A stretch of DNA of 63,710 bases, taken from NCBI GenBank assembly GCA_022566355.1, contig JADFJB010000007.1, forward strand, positions 1-63,710, written 5' to 3'. Of this stretch, positions 1,129 through 24,962 are shown in pieces. The DNA is from a candidate division KSB1 bacterium (GTDB lineage Bacteria > Zhuqueibacterota > JdFR-76 > DREG01). The notes beneath the pieces are model-generated. The model saw only the letters and a program-made list of their open reading frames with translations, was not told where the DNA came from and ran no database searches. A program made the translations under genes and the position numbers. The stretch's first letter is position 1. Each line of letters opens with the position of its first letter.

Positions 1129-1683
1129 ATGATAAACAGAACTAAATGGATCGAAAGAAAATTTGAATTTCATGATCCGGTCGGAGTCTTTCCCTGTATT
1201 TTGGCACGCCTGCGTGGAACCCCGGTTCGAATAGGCGAAATCACCCGAGATTTACCGCCGGGCATTCTTGTCATTAGAGCGGCTGACAGTTGGTCTATTC
1301 AGGAAAATGTCGGTCACTTGCTGGATCTGGAAGAACTGGGTGAAAAAAGACTGGCCGATTTTTTGTCAAATGCAGATGTTCTCACTCCGGCGGATATGAC
1401 AAATACAAAAACCCACGGTGGGAATCATAACTCCGGTTCTATGAAGGATCTCCTGCAAAAATTCAGAGATGCCCGGCAAGACCTGGTTTCCAAACTGGCA
1501 GACCTTAGCGGAGAACAAGTGGCTATCTCTATTTTGCATCCCCGCATCAATAAACCCATGCGTATCATCGATTGGGCGTTTTTTATGGCAGAGCACGACG
1601 ATAACCATGTGGCGAGAATTATCGAATTAGCGAAGATTTTGCAAAGGGGTAATAATGCTTCTTTATGCGAGCATCCTGAGTAG
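1129..1683 (+). CDS. DinB/YfiT-like four-helix putative metal-dependent protein
   Basis: This 184-residue protein has the DinB-superfamily layout: a His in the helix WSIQENVGHLLDLEE (about residue 63) and two late His residues in FMAEHDDNHVARI (about residues 151-156), which together form the usual three-His metal site. The family includes bacillithiol transferases and maleylpyruvate-isomerase-like enzymes, so a thiol-transfer role is possible but not shown. ATG 1129 is preceded by a GAGGCAGG-like ribosome site. It follows the VOC gene on the same strand after 71 bases; VOC and DinB proteins are often neighbours in stress or detoxification contexts. Confidence is good for the family and low for the reaction. 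Confidence 0.75.
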   Translation: MINRTKWIERKFEFHDPVGVFPCILARLRGTPVRIGEITRDLPPGILVIRAADSWSIQENVGHLLDLEELGEKRLADFLSNADVLTPADMTNTKTHGGNHNSGSMKDLLQKFRDARQDLVSKLADLSGEQVAISILHPRINKPMRIIDWAFFMAEHDDNHVARIIELAKILQRGNNASLCEHPE

Positions 1684-1692
1684 CCGACAGTT

Positions 1693-2059
1693 TCATCGTC
1701 GTATTTTTCTTACTCTGAATTTATCTTTTTGAGAGATACAGAAGTGATTTTTTATTTTGTCTCGATATTTTGATATAATCATTTTCATTACCTCAAGTTT
1801 TTCTGATCCTGTCGCATCTTCTAGTCTTAGTAGTATGATTCCTTTATGATCCATTAGAAGAATGATATACTAATTCTCCGAAATCTTTGTCCATAGTAAT
1901 AATCATCCTTTCTTCACTAGCTGCTATTTTTAGAATATCAATATCAGACAATTTGGGATCGATAGATCTTACTGTTTTTGTATCATGACCAACATTTATG
2001 AGAAATTCTTCAATCTTTATGCCAACCCCAACATCCACTAAAAACTTCAATTCAATCAA
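1693..2059 (-). pseudogene. DUF5615 PIN-like toxin, frameshifted
   Basis: The intact frame gives 71 residues with PIN-like/Mut7-C features: an early Asp in FLVDVGVG, then DIDILKIA and the motif ITMDKDFGELV. It stops early, but the next frame continues with KGIILLRLEDATGSEKLEV and a basic tail ending at 1693, exactly the C-terminal half expected for this family (about 110-120 residues). One extra T near 1853-1858 would explain the shift. The gene starts two bases after the DUF433 stop, the usual order of this antitoxin-toxin-like pair. The family is predicted to be an RNase-type toxin. As sequenced, the second half of the fold would be missing. Confidence 0.8.
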
Positions 2060-2061
2060 GC

Positions 2062-2301
2062 TTATGTTGAAGATTCTACAGGAAATACCTGTTCTTCATC
2101 AACCAAGTCTGCAACATACGAATAAACAGCTTGAAAGTCTTCTTTTTCTAATTCCGGATATTCTTCTAATAATTCCTTTTCAGAAATACCGCCAGCTAAA
2201 GCGCGTAATATTTGTTCAACAGTGATTCTCATTCCTCTTATAGTTGGTTTTCCAACCATTATATCCGGATTAATGGTTATTCGCGCTATTGATTTCACCA
2301 T
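2062..2301 (-). CDS. DUF433 protein, putative antitoxin of the DUF5615 partner
   Basis: This 79-residue protein matches the DUF433 pattern: RITINPDIMVGKPTIRGMRI, then a helix-turn-helix-like segment (VEQILRALAGGISEKELLEEYP) and an acidic tail. DUF433 proteins have a winged-helix fold like the VapB45 antitoxin and usually sit directly upstream of a PIN-like DUF5615 protein, as here with a two-base gap. The likely role is DNA-binding autoregulation plus neutralising the toxin. It looks intact although its partner is frameshifted. Confidence 0.85.
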   Translation of the reverse strand: MVKSIARITINPDIMVGKPTIRGMRITVEQILRALAGGISEKELLEEYPELEKEDFQAVYSYVADLVDEEQVFPVESST

Positions 2302-17110: not shown

Positions 17111-17148
17111 TTATTTACTTGGGCTCGTGGCTTTAATTCGGTAGTTAA
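17106..17148. repeat. Direct repeat, copy 1: antitoxin gene 3' end
   Basis: The first 21 bases (GGATTTTATTTACTTGGGCTC plus neighbours) are identical to 19854-19874, and similarity continues more weakly to about 17148. This copy includes the last codons of the HTH antitoxin gene. Confidence 0.7.
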
Positions 17149-17446
17149 GAATTGATGGTTGTAAACGAAGTAGTTCCAATAATACCTTTGTTGAGCCAGA
17201 TGGCTTTCTTTTCCCCTGCTCCCATTGCCGTACAGAAGACGGACTTACATTGAGTAATTTTGCAAACACACTTTGACTTAATTTCGTTGTCCCTCTTATC
17301 TTTTGAATATCCATGGCATTGATTTCTACTTCAGGAATAATGATTCCTAATTTCTTCAATTCTTTCTCAGAAAATGATGTCTTTGCCCCACTTAGTATGA
17401 GATCTTGAATCGTTTCCCCGATTGCTTCTCTTACGCTTTCTCTCAT
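17111..17446 (-). CDS. HTH antitoxin (HigA/NadS-like)
   Basis: The 111-residue protein has a C-terminal Xre-type helix-turn-helix: IRGTTKLSQSVFAKLLNVS, then PSSVRQWEQGKRKPSG. The N-terminal part (MRESVREAIGETIQDL) is typical of antitoxins encoded after RelE-like toxins. It begins five bases after the toxin stop, so the two are one operon in HigB-HigA order. It should neutralise the toxin and repress its own promoter. Confidence 0.85.
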   Translation of the reverse strand: MRESVREAIGETIQDLILSGAKTSFSEKELKKLGIIIPEVEINAMDIQKIRGTTKLSQSVFAKLLNVSPSSVRQWEQGKRKPSGSTKVLLELLRLQPSILNYRIKATSPSK

Positions 17447-17451
17447 CGTTT

Positions 17452-17817
17452 TTACTCCAAAATAATAAAATTACCTAATTCTATTTGCCTTGAATATTCA
17501 TTAACACTTATCTGCAATAAGTCTTTAGCTAATTTTTTGAAATGCCTCAATTCCTCTTTATCTAAATTATCTTTTTCAGCTTTGGAAAATCCATATACGA
17601 AAATTGCTTTTTCCTTTTCTTTATACACGACAATTGTTCTATACCCACCGCTTTTTCCTTTTCCAATTCCAGGAGTGCGGATCTTATGTAGTCCTGCTCC
17701 TAAATTAATGACATTAAGATTTTTAGATAATGATTCAATAGTTCTAAGCAAAATATCATTGGATATGGAATTCTTTTTTGCCCATTTGTTAAACCATCTT
17801 GTTTTAAGTAATAACAT
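17452..17817 (-). CDS. RelE/HigB-type mRNA interferase toxin
   Basis: This 121-residue protein fits the PF06296-like RelE branch: FKTRWF-like start (LLLKTRWFNKWAKKN), then GLHKIRTPGIGKGKSGGYR, TIVVYKEKEKAIFVYGFSKAE and a final ELRHFKKLAKDLL. The GxGKSGGYR and FVYGF segments are diagnostic. Such toxins cleave ribosome-associated mRNA. Of the toxin-like genes in this window it is the only one with an unbroken frame. Confidence 0.85.
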   Translation of the reverse strand: MLLLKTRWFNKWAKKNSISNDILLRTIESLSKNLNVINLGAGLHKIRTPGIGKGKSGGYRTIVVYKEKEKAIFVYGFSKAEKDNLDKEELRHFKKLAKDLLQISVNEYSRQIELGNFIILE

Positions 17818-18219: not shown

Positions 18220-19590
18220 CTAACGATTGGTAAAGTTAACCTCAATGGATAGATCTTGTCGGCGATACAAGCAGGTTCCATCTACACCCTCACAGACATA
18301 ATAGAGTGCATAAGCAGGGACAGTGAGCTTGCCGCCCTCAGGTAATTCCTTACTCCGGATTTCAAACTCGATGTTACGAATCTCCAGGCTCACCGCCTTT
18401 TTAGGATTCGGGACTGTAAAGAACCGTGAACTAGTCTCCCACCCGTTCGAGGCGGACACCCAGAGTTCAAGTTGCCCAACCTCATTATTCCAGTGCGCCT
18501 TGTTGAACTGATTAGGCGCGAATCGCACATGAATTCTTGCAACCCCGCCGTCAGTCGCGGTTGACTTTACAACGACGTAGTCCACCTTAATGTACTGCCC
18601 CTGGTCTCTTACGATTCGGCCCTCCGGGTCAGGCTCGGCTTTTGTCTGCCCGCTGTTAGAGAAACTCCCCGGCTTCGCGATTTCAGCGCCACTGGGCTCG
18701 ACTGTCAGTTCAACGGGTGTTTCACCACGCGCACTTATTTGCCGGCGTGCTTCAGAAACCCAATCATAAAACGGATAAGGTTTATCCAGGCGAGGTCCAT
18801 ACTGTTGAATTCGACGCCGCCAAATGTATTGATTTGGGTTGATGTCAAGTGCCGACGCCCAGTTCTCAACCGCTAATCGAAAATCCGACGCCTGCCGATG
18901 CGCGGAATCATGGCGCATTCGGTGAGCCACGCCAAGACGAAAGCGCGCTGGGCCATTCTCCGGCTCGGATTCAACCACACCATCATAGAGGCGGATAGCC
19001 TCGCCGATATCAGCGGCGTCTCCCCACAGCAACAGGCGATTAGCTCGCTCTGCCTTTTGGCTACCGCCATTTCGAGCGACAATTTCGCTGCTGTCGGATG
19101 CTTTATATTCAGTGTTCAAAAACGCTTCGAGGCCTTCGACATCGGAGCGCTGCGGGTTTATCGCACGAATGATGCCGAATTCATCAATAAAGAGCGTAAT
19201 GGGAACCACTTCGACGCCCAGCAGATTTAAACCGTCGACCATGATCGGCCATCCCATCTGCTTCCATTGCATAAACAAACGAGCACGATCCGGATGCTGC
19301 TCCTGAATGATACCAACCATTTGCACTTTACCGTCGCTCTGCAGAGATTTTGTCGCCTCGTGCCACCCGGGCACGTGAATTCTACAGCCCGCTCACCATG
19401 AGGCAAAGATGTGCAAGATCAGCTTCTGACCGCTATAGTTTCCGATTGAATCTGCAACACCCGCATGTAGAGATGGTAACGGGAGATTCGGAAATGCATC
19501 GCCGACTTTAAACTTTGGTTGGGCCTTTGCGTTTTGTGGGACGACAAGGATTAGGATAGCAACAAATAAAAAGGTCAAGTTCTGCCTCAT
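18220..19590 (-). CDS. Exported thioredoxin-like selenoprotein candidate with TPR and DsbD_N-like domains
   Basis: From ATG 19590 (ribosome site AGGATCG) the frame encodes a signal peptide (residues 1-23), then a TlpA/redoxin domain (24-180). At residue 66 it meets UGA (19393-19395) and continues in the same frame for 390 more residues. The context HIFASW-UGA-AGCR places the UGA exactly at the first Cys of a CxxC redox site, giving U66-x-x-C69. After it come the rest of the thioredoxin fold (VVPITLFIDEFGIIR), a TPR-like region (RLGVAHRMR, WASALDINPNQ) and a C-terminal beta domain with YYVCEGVDGTCLYRRQ, like the two-Cys DsbD N-terminal domain. A hairpin fitting bacterial SECIS rules follows the UGA. 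Expected role: extracytoplasmic thiol/peroxide redox chemistry. Confidence 0.78.
19359..19375 (-). promoter_or_regulatory. Candidate bacterial SECIS element
   Basis: In mRNA sense, CGUGCC and GGCACG form a six-pair stem with the loop CGGGU. The loop starts 23 nucleotides after the UGA, inside the 16-37 range used for bacterial SECIS prediction, and has G in its first two positions and a GU. It lies in the coding sequence, as bacterial SECIS elements do. Confidence 0.65.
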
Positions 19591-19940
19591 GATCGATCCT
19601 CGCTTTGGAAATAAGGACACAGAGTACACAGAAGAGTCAGCAGTCATGGAGTCGTTTCGTAGAAAACGACAAATCGCGGAATCTCTATGGCTACAGTCAA
19701 CTTTCTGCCTGTGGAGCTACCAAATAAACTCCCAATGTCCAATTAATGCTCATTGACAATTTTCATAAGAGGTATAAACATAGTATTTAACTGCCAATAG
19801 ATCAATGAACAATTAACAGTGATCAATTAGCAATAAACAATGACCAATGATCTGGATTTTATTTACTTGGGCTCCTCGTTTTAATTCAATAGTAAAAAGT
19901 TTCTCAAATTTTAAGAGGGCAAAGCGATCAATTTAAGATT
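19591..19940. other. Intergenic region with CAATGA-type short repeats
   Basis: About 350 bases without a gene. The part near 19740-19850 is made of degenerate repeats such as CAATTA/CAATGACCAATGA, and 19854-19896 repeats the 3' end of the HTH antitoxin gene. The promoter of the selenoprotein candidate should lie at its left end. Confidence 0.4.
19854..19896. repeat. Direct repeat, copy 2: detached antitoxin 3' end
   Basis: It matches 17106-17126 over 21 bases exactly and then more loosely. No antitoxin coding sequence is attached here. The two copies bracket the HigBA-type module and the selenoprotein candidate. Confidence 0.65.
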
Positions 19941-21104
19941 CTATGGATTTTGAGCCACGGACTTATATCCAACTTGCCGGTTCTGGAGGCCATTGATCTT
20001 ATTGAATTGATACGATAGTTGCATGCCGTATTCATCCGGTTTTAGAAATGCTTTTGGATCAAGTAACCCTCGCCTTCGAAACATCAGAGGCGGATTGACG
20101 ATATCATATTTTAGTAACAGGGTACCAAACGCGCCCTCCTGGGCCAGCAAATTGCGTTTATTCGTGTGCGCCACAGTCAAGGCGGCTCTGGTTAATAAGC
20201 TGGTTTCCCCCACCTGAGCCCCGACGATGATAGGTAGTGCAAGTTCTCCAGCCATCCTGGCAATTTCCAACGAGCGTAGCAAGCCCCCCATTTTGGAAAT
20301 TCGAATGTTAATAATGAAAGATGGTGCAATTTTTTGGATAGAATCGAAATGCGATTTATTTAGAAAACTCTCATCTAAAATGATTTTTGTCTGCGTGCCC
20401 TCGGCTACTTTACTCAGTTGCTCAAACTGCATCGCAGCTAAGGGCTCCTCGATGCCAAGTAACCGGATTCCAAATTGCTTGAAATAATCAATGGCTGTGC
20501 CGCTGTCCTGCCAGATGTTATTGGCATCGACCCTGAGTTTTAGATTTCCTTTTCCCAATTCCTGAAGGAGTGCAATTTTTTTGACGTCATCAGATAGATC
20601 TCCGGAGATTTTCAGCTTAAATTCCTGGAAACCCATAGCCAGATATTGTTTTACCTGCAATACGAACTTGTCCCAGGAGGCATTTCCCAGCACGGCAGTA
20701 TAGCGAAAGTCTCCATTTAGTTGTGGCAAACCTAGTATTTTTTCTAAGGATTGTTTGTTTTCTTTGGCCAACAGATCTAACAGGGCAAGTTCAATAGCAC
20801 ACCAGGCGGCAGGGTTATTGTCGATGAGAGCTTCATTATCCCGCACAAAGTCTTGTAAAGATTCAAGAGAATGGATCTTGCCAATTAATATCTCCCGGTG
20901 GGTTTCAAAAAAGGCAGTGGCGGATTCGACGGTTTCATGAGTGACATACTCCCTTGGACACCCTTCCCCTAATCCGATATTGCCGCTTGCTGATTTGGCC
21001 ACTACCAGGATGGATTGGGTCATTTCCCGTTCAGCACTGCTGTGCTTAAAACTTACTTTAAAGGGGATGTTGAGCTTAATTAAGGAAAGTTCGGTAAGTG
21101 TCAT
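19941..21104 (-). CDS. Enolase-superfamily enzyme, dipeptide epimerase-like
   Basis: The 387-residue protein has the muconate-lactonising/dipeptide-epimerase layout: capping domain with GLGEGCPREYVTHET, then K163-L-K165 (FKLKIS), D193 (LRVDANNIW), E219 (GIEEPL), D244 (ILDESF) and K271 (ISKMGG). The paired Lys (KxK and KMGG) on both faces suit 1,1-proton transfer as in L-Ala-D/L-Glu epimerases; o-succinylbenzoate synthase-like chemistry is the main alternative. It is the last gene of a tight minus-strand operon (five bases from the hydroxylase-GH3 gene), so its substrate may be an amino-acid or peptide conjugate made there rather than a cell-wall peptide. Confidence 0.82.
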   Translation of the reverse strand: MTLTELSLIKLNIPFKVSFKHSSAEREMTQSILVVAKSASGNIGLGEGCPREYVTHETVESATAFFETHREILIGKIHSLESLQDFVRDNEALIDNNPAAWCAIELALLDLLAKENKQSLEKILGLPQLNGDFRYTAVLGNASWDKFVLQVKQYLAMGFQEFKLKISGDLSDDVKKIALLQELGKGNLKLRVDANNIWQDSGTAIDYFKQFGIRLLGIEEPLAAMQFEQLSKVAEGTQTKIILDESFLNKSHFDSIQKIAPSFIINIRISKMGGLLRSLEIARMAGELALPIIVGAQVGETSLLTRAALTVAHTNKRNLLAQEGAFGTLLLKYDIVNPPLMFRRRGLLDPKAFLKPDEYGMQLSYQFNKINGLQNRQVGYKSVAQNP

Positions 21105-21109
21105 GTACC

Positions 21110-23680
21110 TTATTCCATTATATGCGCATGGAAATCAAAAAGGATGTCTTTCTTATATTGTAGTACGATTGTTTTGAACTGGCCTTCCCGCTGGCCTCCC
21201 TGCAAGCATGCTGTCTTAAATCGCTCAAAGGTTCCCTGGCGCAAGGAAAAAACATTTATCGGTTTTAGCCGGTTACTCTCGCGCTTGACCTGGTACTCTA
21301 AGTTTAACAGGCCAAGCTGCTCATCTAAATATGCAGAGATTTTGTTATCATCGATTGCCGTTTTGTCGCCTAATTCGAAATATAGTTCATAACCTGAAGA
21401 CACTTGGTTAGCCAGCATTTGATAAAACCGAAAATGGCAACCGAATGTTTGTTCCGCTTTTTGCATTGCCAGAATCACCTGGCTTTCGTACAACTTTTCT
21501 CCGGTAATATTGGTGACCCCCTTCCCCTTCTGCACAAACTTTAAAGTGGGTGTATTCTGGAATTTGCCGGTCACCGTGACGATATCATTCATGTCATATC
21601 GATACAGGCCGGCTTTCGTGGTCACGACCAGGTAATATTCCTGGTCGTGTTCAAGTTGTTCGATGGTTAAGAACACTTTATCATTTTGTTCCCATTTTTC
21701 CTTTTCTACAAATTCAAAAAAGTTTTCCCGGATGGTCGGCAGACCGGCATTTGTTGCCAGATCGATAGTGATGGTCCCCCGGAATTCGCTGGACATATAT
21801 CCCAGTTCAACCACTTCGGCATCCCGGGGAAACTTTGGCAAAAGACTACTCAGGGCAATGCCACAGCTGCCACCTGTCCAGGTCGTAACGATCTTTAAGT
21901 AAGGCCACACCTGTGAAAAACCAACAGACTCAATAGAGCTAAATATCTCCGCCAGCTCAGCAGCTCGCTTTGGATTTGGCTTGACACTTTGTTTGAGCTT
22001 CGACGCTATGGCCGGTGCCATTTTGTCTAAAAAGGCAATGGTCCCGCTTTTGATATCCTGCAGCAGCAAGTCCTGCTGTTCGTTCATCACTTCCAGCAGA
22101 CGGTGAAAGGTGGAAGGATTGGCGCTTGCCAGATAGGTGATGTCCTTCTGTGCCAGGGCGAGTCGCATGATGGTGTAGTATTTGGTGTCGTAATCTTTGA
22201 TCTCAAAAACCTCCGCAGGCAAAACATACTTGCCGCGGATGATTTTGGGCATGGTTTTGTAAATCAGTCCCGACGCCGAACCGAAGGGAATTCCGCTTTC
22301 CCGGGTACCCTCATTGGCCGGACTTACAATGCCCAGTAATTTGCCATAGAATGCCTCGGGCTTAATTCTATATTGCACATAAGAAAAAATCCGTTGACTT
22401 TTTCGCAAGTTCGATATGGTTTCCTCCATCACAGGTATGTATTTTGGCTTTCCTGTGGTCCCGCTGGTCTCGTTATACATAATAGGCATGTCGGCGTGGA
22501 TAACGGATTCCCCGGTCTTCTCCTGTTCCTCGAAGTAAGGTCTCAACTGCTCATAATCATGTACCGGGACAAACTCTTTGAACTGCGCGTAATTCTTAAT
22601 CTTTTCAAAAGAATGCTCTTTTCCGAAACGGGTATTCCTGTTCTGTTGCAGAATTTTGTGAAGCAGATTTTCCTGAACCTTCCAGGGTTCGCGTGCGCTG
22701 CGCACATACGGTGCATAATACCGAAAGCGAATATGAATCATCCGCAGCTTTAATAACCCATTCATCGCGATATCCCTGTACTTGAGAAGGGGGAGGGCTT
22801 GACTATCAATGTTGCCGGCAAACGGGGTCCTAAGTTGGGATTTAAAATCCAAGGGGTAGTCTTTATTAAACAAACCTAGTTCACCGACCAAACGGTCCCT
22901 CGGGAAGAAATATGTCCCGAAAAGGATATCCCAAATGATGATATTATTGCCATAATTGGCATTTGATTCTTCAATCAAGCGCGAATGGTGCCAGCGGTGC
23001 AGCTCTGCGCTGCTGATGATGTAATTCAGAAATCCAAATCGCAGCTCGATATTACAGTGTTGAAAGAAGCCATTTACAGCGTAAAAAACGAAATAGAGTG
23101 CCACTACCTCTTCCCGCACACCCAAAACAATGAAGGGCAGGGCGTCGGCCAGGAATTGTAAGCTTTTTTCGATCGGATGGAATCGACCAACATTTAACCA
23201 GTAAAGTTTCTTGGGCGAATGGTGAACCGCGTGAAGTCTCCATAAGGTATTATTTTCATGCGAAAACTTGTGCAGCCAATAGCGAAAAAAATCAGCAATT
23301 AATACCATGAGAACTGCTTGTACGCCAATTGGCCAGGCATGGGGCCAGAATCCAGTCAATCCTAAACTATAGTAAGCTATTATTTTTATGATAGAAATGG
23401 CAACCAGAAAAGCCAGTAACTTCGGCAGAATCATCTGCACGGTTACCATAAATAACATATCGTTGCCAACATCGTTCTTATTGGCTATCCAACTTTTGAT
23501 ATGCGGGTTATAAAGTTCCAGGAAAGTAATCGATGCTGCACCAACGATAACCGGTATGTAAGTATAGGCAAGTAAAGCAAATCCCAGGCCTCTGAAGGTC
23601 ATAAACAGGCCGATACAAACAAGCATGACCACCGGATAAGCGGTCCATGTCAAGGCATTTTTGATTGTTAAAGTAGGCAT
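21110..23680 (-). CDS. Fatty acid/sterol hydroxylase fused to GH3-type acyl-amide synthetase
   Basis: This 856-residue fusion has an N-terminal membrane di-iron hydroxylase (about residues 1-290, several transmembrane helices) with the His boxes H137-x3-H141, H150-xx-HH (153-154) and HRWHH (228-232). From about residue 310 follows a GH3-family domain of the adenylate-forming kind: the phosphate-binding loop ETSGTTGKPK (404-413), then SANPSTFHRLLEV, TWTGGSCGIAL, YMSSEFRG and YYLVVTTKAGLYRYDMNDIV. GH3 enzymes adenylate a carboxylic acid and join it to an amino acid. The fusion suggests a lipid carboxylate hydroxylated and conjugated at the membrane. Substrates are unknown. It sits four bases after the small membrane protein gene. 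Confidence 0.88.
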   Translation of the reverse strand: MPTLTIKNALTWTAYPVVMLVCIGLFMTFRGLGFALLAYTYIPVIVGAASITFLELYNPHIKSWIANKNDVGNDMLFMVTVQMILPKLLAFLVAISIIKIIAYYSLGLTGFWPHAWPIGVQAVLMVLIADFFRYWLHKFSHENNTLWRLHAVHHSPKKLYWLNVGRFHPIEKSLQFLADALPFIVLGVREEVVALYFVFYAVNGFFQHCNIELRFGFLNYIISSAELHRWHHSRLIEESNANYGNNIIIWDILFGTYFFPRDRLVGELGLFNKDYPLDFKSQLRTPFAGNIDSQALPLLKYRDIAMNGLLKLRMIHIRFRYYAPYVRSAREPWKVQENLLHKILQQNRNTRFGKEHSFEKIKNYAQFKEFVPVHDYEQLRPYFEEQEKTGESVIHADMPIMYNETSGTTGKPKYIPVMEETISNLRKSQRIFSYVQYRIKPEAFYGKLLGIVSPANEGTRESGIPFGSASGLIYKTMPKIIRGKYVLPAEVFEIKDYDTKYYTIMRLALAQKDITYLASANPSTFHRLLEVMNEQQDLLLQDIKSGTIAFLDKMAPAIASKLKQSVKPNPKRAAELAEIFSSIESVGFSQVWPYLKIVTTWTGGSCGIALSSLLPKFPRDAEVVELGYMSSEFRGTITIDLATNAGLPTIRENFFEFVEKEKWEQNDKVFLTIEQLEHDQEYYLVVTTKAGLYRYDMNDIVTVTGKFQNTPTLKFVQKGKGVTNITGEKLYESQVILAMQKAEQTFGCHFRFYQMLANQVSSGYELYFELGDKTAIDDNKISAYLDEQLGLLNLEYQVKRESNRLKPINVFSLRQGTFERFKTACLQGGQREGQFKTIVLQYKKDILFDFHAHIME

Positions 23681-24146: not shown

Positions 24147-24962
24147 TCAATCACTACTTATATTCTTATCAAAGGGCATCTTCAATAGGAAGAGAATATT
24201 TTCATCTGGCGTACCGTCAAGAAAATCTAAGCCATACCTTACTTTTTTGGGGTCATCGTAGACCATTGTTCCAAAAATACGATCCCAAATTGAGAACATA
24301 TTGCCAAAGTTGGCATCAGTCCATGGCAGCTTAAAGTGATGATGAAATTTGTGCATATTGGGCGTTATAAAAATCCAACTTAGGGATTTATCCAACCAGT
24401 TTGGCATCGATATATTTGCATGGGTGACATACGTGAAGAAGATGGTGCATATTCTAAAAAAGAAGTAGAATGCGATGGGAGCACCAATAAGAATTATGGC
24501 GACCAAGGCAAATAATTCACGCAGAATATAGTCACCTGGATGATGACGAGTGCCGGTGGTAGCATCCACTTTCGTGTCACTATGATGAACCATATGAAGC
24601 TTCCACAGCCATTTTATCCTGTGCATAAGATAATGGACGAAATACTGTGCTACCAGCTCCAATAGTAAAACGGCGATGAGCAATTCAGCCCAGATAGGCA
24701 GATCAATAATAAACAATAATCCAATTTCATTCTGCTGGACCCACTCAAATACGCCCACGGTAGCAATTCCGAAAATAAGGTTGATGATTCCTATGCCCAA
24801 AAAAAATACTAAATTAACCCCACCATGTTTCCATTTTTGATAATCAAATTGAAATAGTGGATAGTTACCCTCGAGTAACCAACAAAAGATTAAACAACCT
24901 AAAACCCAGACAAACTTCTGCCATACCGGCATCTGCTCGAAGAAAATTAAGAAGGAGTCCAT
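24147..24962 (-). CDS. Sterol desaturase/fatty acid hydroxylase family membrane enzyme
   Basis: 271 residues with several transmembrane helices and the three His clusters of the family: H110-x3-H114 (VHYLMH), H123-xx-HH (HMVHHSD) and NMHKFHHHF (204-209), followed by NFGNMFSIWDRIFGTM, which is highly typical. These enzymes use a di-iron centre and oxygen to hydroxylate or desaturate lipid chains or sterol-like rings. It is the first complete gene of the operon, so the cluster encodes two distinct hydroxylases (one free, one fused). Confidence 0.9.
   Translation of the reverse strand: MDSFLIFFEQMPVWQKFVWVLGCLIFCWLLEGNYPLFQFDYQKWKHGGVNLVFFLGIGIINLIFGIATVGVFEWVQQNEIGLLFIIDLPIWAELLIAVLLLELVAQYFVHYLMHRIKWLWKLHMVHHSDTKVDATTGTRHHPGDYILRELFALVAIILIGAPIAFYFFFRICTIFFTYVTHANISMPNWLDKSLSWIFITPNMHKFHHHFKLPWTDANFGNMFSIWDRIFGTMVYDDPKKVRYGLDFLDGTPDENILFLLKMPFDKNISSD

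Follow-up and report, generated by a model that had tools for sequence, protein, structure and literature searches.

A selenocysteine-x-x-cysteine (Sec-x-x-Cys) motif in a TlpA/ResA-type domain is a fast thiol-disulfide catalyst that works through a selenenylsulfide. ResA, TlpA and DsbE (CcmG) provide the best PDB folds for the thioredoxin domain of the protein described here (TM-score by target about 0.6–0.8) and share its cis-proline, whereas the protein and its homologues differ from them in having Sec (U) for the first Cys and in carrying two extra domains. NF041054 (NCBIfam, ResA-like WAxxUGC motif-containing protein), to which a UGC-containing TlpA family is comparable (PMC13188914), also has Sec as the first redox residue of a ResA-like domain. 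All 74 members of our family match NF041054 across the thioredoxin domain and the helices next to it (best E 1.1e-26). Our protein itself scores 51.3 bits against a cut-off of 300 and falls outside NF041054, though it is related to it in the thioredoxin–helix part, the match covering residues 33–263 of 456 and leaving the C-terminal Cys-pair domain outside. The motifs also differ: NF041054 has UGC, with one residue between U and C, whereas the protein here has UAGC.

A redoxin/thioredoxin-like domain with UxxC is shared by the ‘Redoxin family protein’ (PF08534; PMC13188914) and ‘Prx-like 3’ (pfam08534; PMC2398784), which we infer to be the same family. The Pfam Redoxin model gives our protein 25.7 bits against a cut-off of 26.6, and 71 of the 74 members match it at E < 0.01. 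Prx-like 3 has 2,608 Cys homologues in its source study (PMC2398784), whereas the present family shows none. The accessible text on Redoxin and Prx-like 3 describes neither a TPR nor a beta domain. Earlier metagenome surveys list UxxC ‘Prx-like 3’ or ‘Redoxin’ sequences alongside thousands of Cys homologues, and single members of our family may be counted among these sequences. The N-terminal domain of DsbD (DsbD alpha) is an Ig-like beta domain with a Cys pair, which the C-terminal domain of our family weakly resembles. We found no description of a three-domain, always-Sec family in the literature searched (most subscription journals lay outside its reach) and no NCBIfam or Pfam model for the whole protein. 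Apparently uncatalogued, the family belongs to a known kind of selenoprotein and is unusual in that it seems always to contain Sec.

One reading frame with a single internal UGA

The gene lies on the minus strand of the window, the whole stretch of 63,710 nucleotides that was analysed (contig JADFJB010000007.1 of the candidate division KSB1 assembly GCA_022566355.1). With TGA read as U, positions 18220–19590 encode one 456-residue protein with one internal TGA (19393–19395) in the context FASW-U-AGCR, which confirms the claim of a sequence-only reading that an in-frame UGA splits one protein at its first redox position. Without recoding, an ordinary ORF finder returns only a 384-residue ORF that starts at GTG 19374, so that conventional gene calling would drop the N-terminus, as that reading had anticipated. 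TGA is otherwise a normal stop in the window, where it ends 12 of the 44 major ORFs. Two other ORFs in the window seemed extendable past one upstream stop and were rejected, each extension being the next gene in the same frame. The features of the locus are as follows, with the basis of each assignment in brackets.

18220..19590, minus strand: predicted selenoprotein gene, 456 codons plus stop, UGA at codon 66 (reading frame and homologues)
19597..19601, minus strand: GAGGA, Shine-Dalgarno-like, just 5′ of the ATG at 19590 (direct reading)
19516..19590, minus strand: predicted N-terminal hydrophobic signal peptide, about residues 1–25, no lipobox (sequence)
19153..19509, minus strand: thioredoxin/AhpC-TSA domain, residues 28–146, nearest folds ResA/DsbE/TlpA (Pfam, fold search)
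19393..19395, minus strand: in-frame UGA, predicted Sec66, first redox residue of UAGC (TGA in homologous loci and in an independent profile search)
19384..19386, minus strand: Cys69, resolving residue of UxxC (invariant, 74/74)
19359..19375, minus strand: bacterial SECIS hairpin, stem CGUGCC/GGCACG, loop CGGGU, internal pair C-G, 19369 with 19366 (covariation, synonymous-site constraint, bSECIS model; PMC13188914)
18805..19059, minus strand: TPR-like helical region ending in a conserved NQYIWRRRIQQYGPRLDKPYPFYDW motif, the motif reaching to about 18760 (alignment, domain search, model)
18235..18603, minus strand: C-terminal Ig-like beta domain, weakly DsbD N-terminal-like (Pfam, fold)
18271..18294, minus strand: second redox pair Cys433...Cys440, CEGVDGTC (conserved in 74/74 and 73/74)

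The UGA is conserved in homologues from several phyla

Six peptide stretches from outside the active site served as queries against 84,980 species genomes, and we took the best 80 of 124 loci, 79 of which cover the UGA site. Homologues are 38–55% identical to the window protein (these 80 loci, 39–54% in the best segment), and the record titles of the loci name Acidobacteriota, Gemmatimonadetes (Gemmatimonadota), Planctomycetota, Verrucomicrobia (Verrucomicrobiota) and a few others. TGA stands at exactly the UGA codon in all 79 site-covering loci, and only one of them, L085, has another internal stop, a TAG. This TAG (L085:3199, from a member of the Gemmataceae) lies five codons 3′ of the UGA and may be a sequencing error, a pseudogene or recoding. 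As a second, independent check, we searched 396 genomes from the phylum of Acidobacteria bacterium Mor1 with a 74-row profile. It gave 19 matches at E ≤ 1e-40; all 17 that reach the site do so with one TGA, and the two without TGA are partial matches that begin after it. No Cys version at the UGA site was seen in the 79 loci (from the best 80 of 124) or in the 396-genome profile search. The residues after U form U-A-G-C or U-R-G-C in most members, with a different residue after U in two.

The alignment contains 43 invariant positions, which lie on both sides of the UGA and so exclude a pseudogene. Aligning homologues at the UGA, a check that the sequence-only reading had proposed, gave TGA throughout and no Cys. 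The same reading had held that homologues with a conserved stop would speak against Sec; the stop is indeed universal, but the frame is intact on both sides and a SECIS element follows, and this combination is what an always-Sec family predicts. Judged from these alignments, UGA apparently codes for Sec, never Cys, at every active site checked across several phyla, and the family appears to be always Sec.

A covarying hairpin follows the UGA

The published model of the bacterial SECIS has a stem of 4–16 bp and a loop of 3–9 nt with an early G followed by G or U, 16–37 nt after the UGA (PMC13188914). In the window gene, the hairpin begins 17 nt 3′ of the UGA and runs from 19375 to 19359. The isolated stem folds at −9.6 kcal/mol, a value that 24 of 200 shuffles also reached, and minimum-energy folding of the 41 nt from the UGA preferred a different fold over the SECIS. 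Fold energy alone proves nothing, and the case therefore rests on conservation and covariation.

We aligned the 46 nt from the UGA, free of gaps, in 67 members. The stem (21–26/32–37) and the loop pair 27–30 are paired in 98.1% of cells, compared with 91.0% for shuffled sequences and 21–57% for slid positions, and four pairs show changes on both sides. The loop pair is C-G in 51 sequences, G-C in 10 and A-U in 6, is unpaired in none of the 67, and switches type at least nine times on the protein tree. Positions 27 and 30 are the third, synonymous bases of a Pro codon and the codon that follows it. They are complementary in 78 of 78 genes, whereas Pro-[GVA] neighbours elsewhere in these genes are so in 186 of 667 cases (28%). 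Similarly, Val at U+7 is encoded by GTG in 75 of 76 cases, against 1,094 of 2,845 (38%) elsewhere. Both biases point to selection on the RNA and not only on the protein. The family element agrees with the published model (6 bp, loop N-G-(G/U)-N′-U, 23 nt spacing, covarying), and the six-pair hairpin originally proposed from the window alone is borne out by the covariation of its stem and loop. A Planctomycetota subfamily with mostly U-R-G-C (L071, L073–L075, L079, L080, L083, L097 and L099) has a SECIS that seems shifted toward the UGA, with stem CAGGCC/GGCCUG and loop GUGCC.

Protein architecture and redox residues

An AlphaFold2 model built with 74 sequences (pLDDT 91, pTM 0.90) comprises a thioredoxin domain, a helical linker and an Ig-like beta domain. 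Together with the conserved residues, it upholds the proposed order of thioredoxin domain, TPR-like helices and beta domain with a Cys pair. The window protein scores 30.9 bits against Pfam AhpC-TSA (cut-off 26); its thioredoxin fold has W-(C/U)xx-C and a conserved cis-Pro, and the best PDB folds are ResA, DsbE and related proteins. U66, C69 and C433 are present in all 74 members and C440 in 73, the sole exception being a truncated sequence, and the window protein has no Cys other than C69, C433 and C440. Export to the periplasm is predicted, in agreement with the sequence-only reading, from the hydrophobic N-terminus and the missing lipobox, a motif that occurs in 1 of 77 members.

The beta domain with its Cys pair is certain as a sequence feature, and the C-terminal domain folds alone (pLDDT 92). 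A fold search with this domain gave Ig-like domains, including the DsbD N-terminal domain at E of about 0.01–0.02 and TM of 0.3–0.4. The Pfam model DsbD_N (PF11412) matches 3 of 71 members, all below the gathering cut-off (best E 0.009, 16.4 against 25 bits), and the match of the best-scoring member covers the region that holds both Cys; a search of the window protein itself gave no DsbD_N match. The earlier assignment of this domain as DsbD_N-like is thus weak, as judged by Pfam, by comparison with PDB sequences and by fold: the Cys pair is conserved, but fold similarity is poor and mixed with other Ig-like folds. We treat homology to DsbD as a lead, not a finding.

Origin and gene neighbourhood

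The GC content of the gene is 0.52 against 0.39 for the genome, and no sampled stretch of equal length from the same genome reaches 0.52. We found no full-length homologue in 58 genomes of the same phylum, and the closest sequences in the protein phylogeny come mainly from Acidobacteriota. The gene was probably acquired by horizontal transfer. Misbinning of the contig was also considered; most of the window fits the tetranucleotide make-up of the genome, and only the 13–20 kb part is compositionally foreign.

Two adjacent TldD/PmbA-like metallopeptidase genes (PF19289; 13203–16858, plus strand) have apparent signal peptides and a GC content of 0.51 against 0.39; this pair was possibly transferred too, perhaps together with the selenoprotein gene. 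A RelE-like toxin and HTH antitoxin pair (17111–17817, minus strand) lies in or beside the foreign segment. On the other side, a fatty-acid-hydroxylase/sterol-desaturase-like domain is fused to a full GH3 (acyl-adenylating) protein (21110–23680, minus strand), followed by an enolase-superfamily epimerase-like gene (19941–21104), and a second hydroxylase is found at 24147–24962. Across the homologous loci, flanking sequence of at most about 3 kb contains no conserved gene neighbours beyond four-locus coincidences. The flanks therefore indicate no operon partner and give no pointer to a partner or substrate, which is compatible with a stand-alone enzyme.

Selenocysteine machinery in carriers, host and relatives

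SelA was detected over the cut-off in 49 of 50 genomes that carry the gene. The host assembly is a draft of 4.62 Mb in 213 contigs, 98.5% complete. Its selD has an in-frame TGA within CGUAAK, an intact frame and, after the TGA, a SECIS-like hairpin with loop GGUC. We detected no match to selA in this assembly and only other GTPases in the search for selB. No tRNA-Sec (selC) was detected either, including with a covariance model trained on twelve tRNA-Sec genes of the phylum. The best hits are ordinary tRNAs (for example, Ser, Leu and Tyr), and ARAGORN assigned a UCA anticodon to none of the top tRNA candidates. The search of the full genome, which the sequence-only reading had named as a test that could refute it, therefore divides: the nearly complete assembly contains selD but lacks selA, selB and selC.

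Among the genomes searched, selA exceeded the cut-off in 44 of 59, including both genomes of the same family. Where seen, selA and selB adjoin and selC lies elsewhere, which makes two separate places. With 59 candidates scored per genome, 11 of the 44 selA-positive genomes gave no tRNA-Sec match above 60 bits, and selA is absent from 3 of 36 genomes with tRNA-Sec. In 11 of 36 cases, compared with 5.7 expected (p = 0.005), no more than 1 kb separates the tRNA-Sec gene of a relative (for example, L176 and L213) from a contig end, and once the gene is beside an integrase. Missing selC has been reported for KSB1 MAGs (PMC9012183), and this absence may in part be a contig-end artefact. A search of the host genome for selA and selB of one same-family genome and their neighbours gave no sel genes and no clear neighbour orthologues. 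The sel flanks differ between the two same-family genomes, so that synteny could not decide between gap and loss. In a same-order genome (G004), a separate thioredoxin-like ORF (L102, about 1402–2301, plus strand) has an in-frame TGA (FFATW-U-GGC) and an apparent C-terminal secretion-sorting tail, and is another selenoprotein candidate in the lineage.

Alternative explanations

The missing machinery could mean that a genuine selenoprotein gene was transferred into a host that has lost Sec decoding, so that it is not expressed here at full length. The foreign composition of the gene and its absence from the 58 same-phylum genomes fit this account, and the disappearance of two sel loci from a bin this complete carries some weight against assembly gaps. 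The host, however, keeps a selD that itself has an in-frame UGA, a hairpin and an intact frame, and the frame, SECIS and redox residues of the selenoprotein gene are undamaged. Since the host thus retains two genes whose frames continue intact past a UGA, we think assembly gaps the more likely cause. SelA is also present in most of the genomes searched, in which detection gaps are common and tRNA-Sec tends to lie near contig ends. We consider a host without Sec decoding unlikely.

The remaining accounts concern the UGA itself. TGC or TGT becomes TGA by one base change and the source is a draft assembly, so the gene could be imagined as an ordinary Cys thioredoxin gene with a sequencing error or, as a pseudogene, with a nonsense mutation; the same TGA in unrelated assemblies in both searches, the covarying hairpin and frames that are intact on both sides apart from the one TAG in L085 have already refuted this for the family as a whole, and leave it a negligible chance for this gene. 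Translation of UGA as Cys or Trp, whether through a suppressor tRNA or an altered code, would accommodate the failure to find tRNA-Sec in the assembly. It is hard to credit when UGA is a normal stop in the window, none of the best candidate tRNAs has a UCA anticodon, the SECIS covaries and nearly all carriers have selA. A regulated stop, at which the truncated and the read-through product would each have a role, such as in sensing selenium, would give a reason for a UGA that never becomes Cys, which is unusual for a thiol oxidoreductase. However, the segment ahead of the UGA makes up an incomplete thioredoxin fold, and active-site and cis-Pro residues flank the UGA, which makes such a role very improbable. 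The UGA conservation, the SECIS covariation and selA in the carriers instead support the original proposal of Sec at the first redox position, and we conclude that both the family and this gene very probably encode selenoproteins.

Proposed mechanism and implications

As a selenoprotein, the product would be made when SelB carrying Sec-tRNA binds the SECIS downstream of the UGA and the ribosome reads the UGA as Sec. In the periplasm, the ResA/TlpA-like domain with Sec66-x-x-Cys69 would then act as a fast thiol-disulfide reductase via a selenenylsulfide, the direction being presumably reduction rather than oxidation. The Cys433/Cys440 dithiol of the beta domain would be the most likely on-board donor or acceptor of electrons for Sec66, and the TPR-like helices may hold the domains together or bind a partner. 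Conservation of all four redox residues makes an intramolecular relay between Sec66/Cys69 and Cys433/Cys440 plausible, and we give this putative relay slightly less than an even chance. That the locus represents both an undescribed, multi-phylum, never-Cys family and a self-contained periplasmic relay (Sec66/Cys69 with Cys433/Cys440 in the same chain) is a joint reading that we consider somewhat less likely than not.

Families without Cys homologues are possibly missed by deep-Sep, according to its authors (PMC12013277, PMC13188914). If the always-Sec nature of this family is true, pipelines that seek Sec/Cys pairs would tend to miss it. The gene calls of many genomes probably lack its catalytic half-domain. 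The family spans several phyla of mostly uncultured bacteria, with no Cys orthologue found in the searches described above, and would offer a natural setting in which to ask why certain redox sites fail to revert to cysteine.
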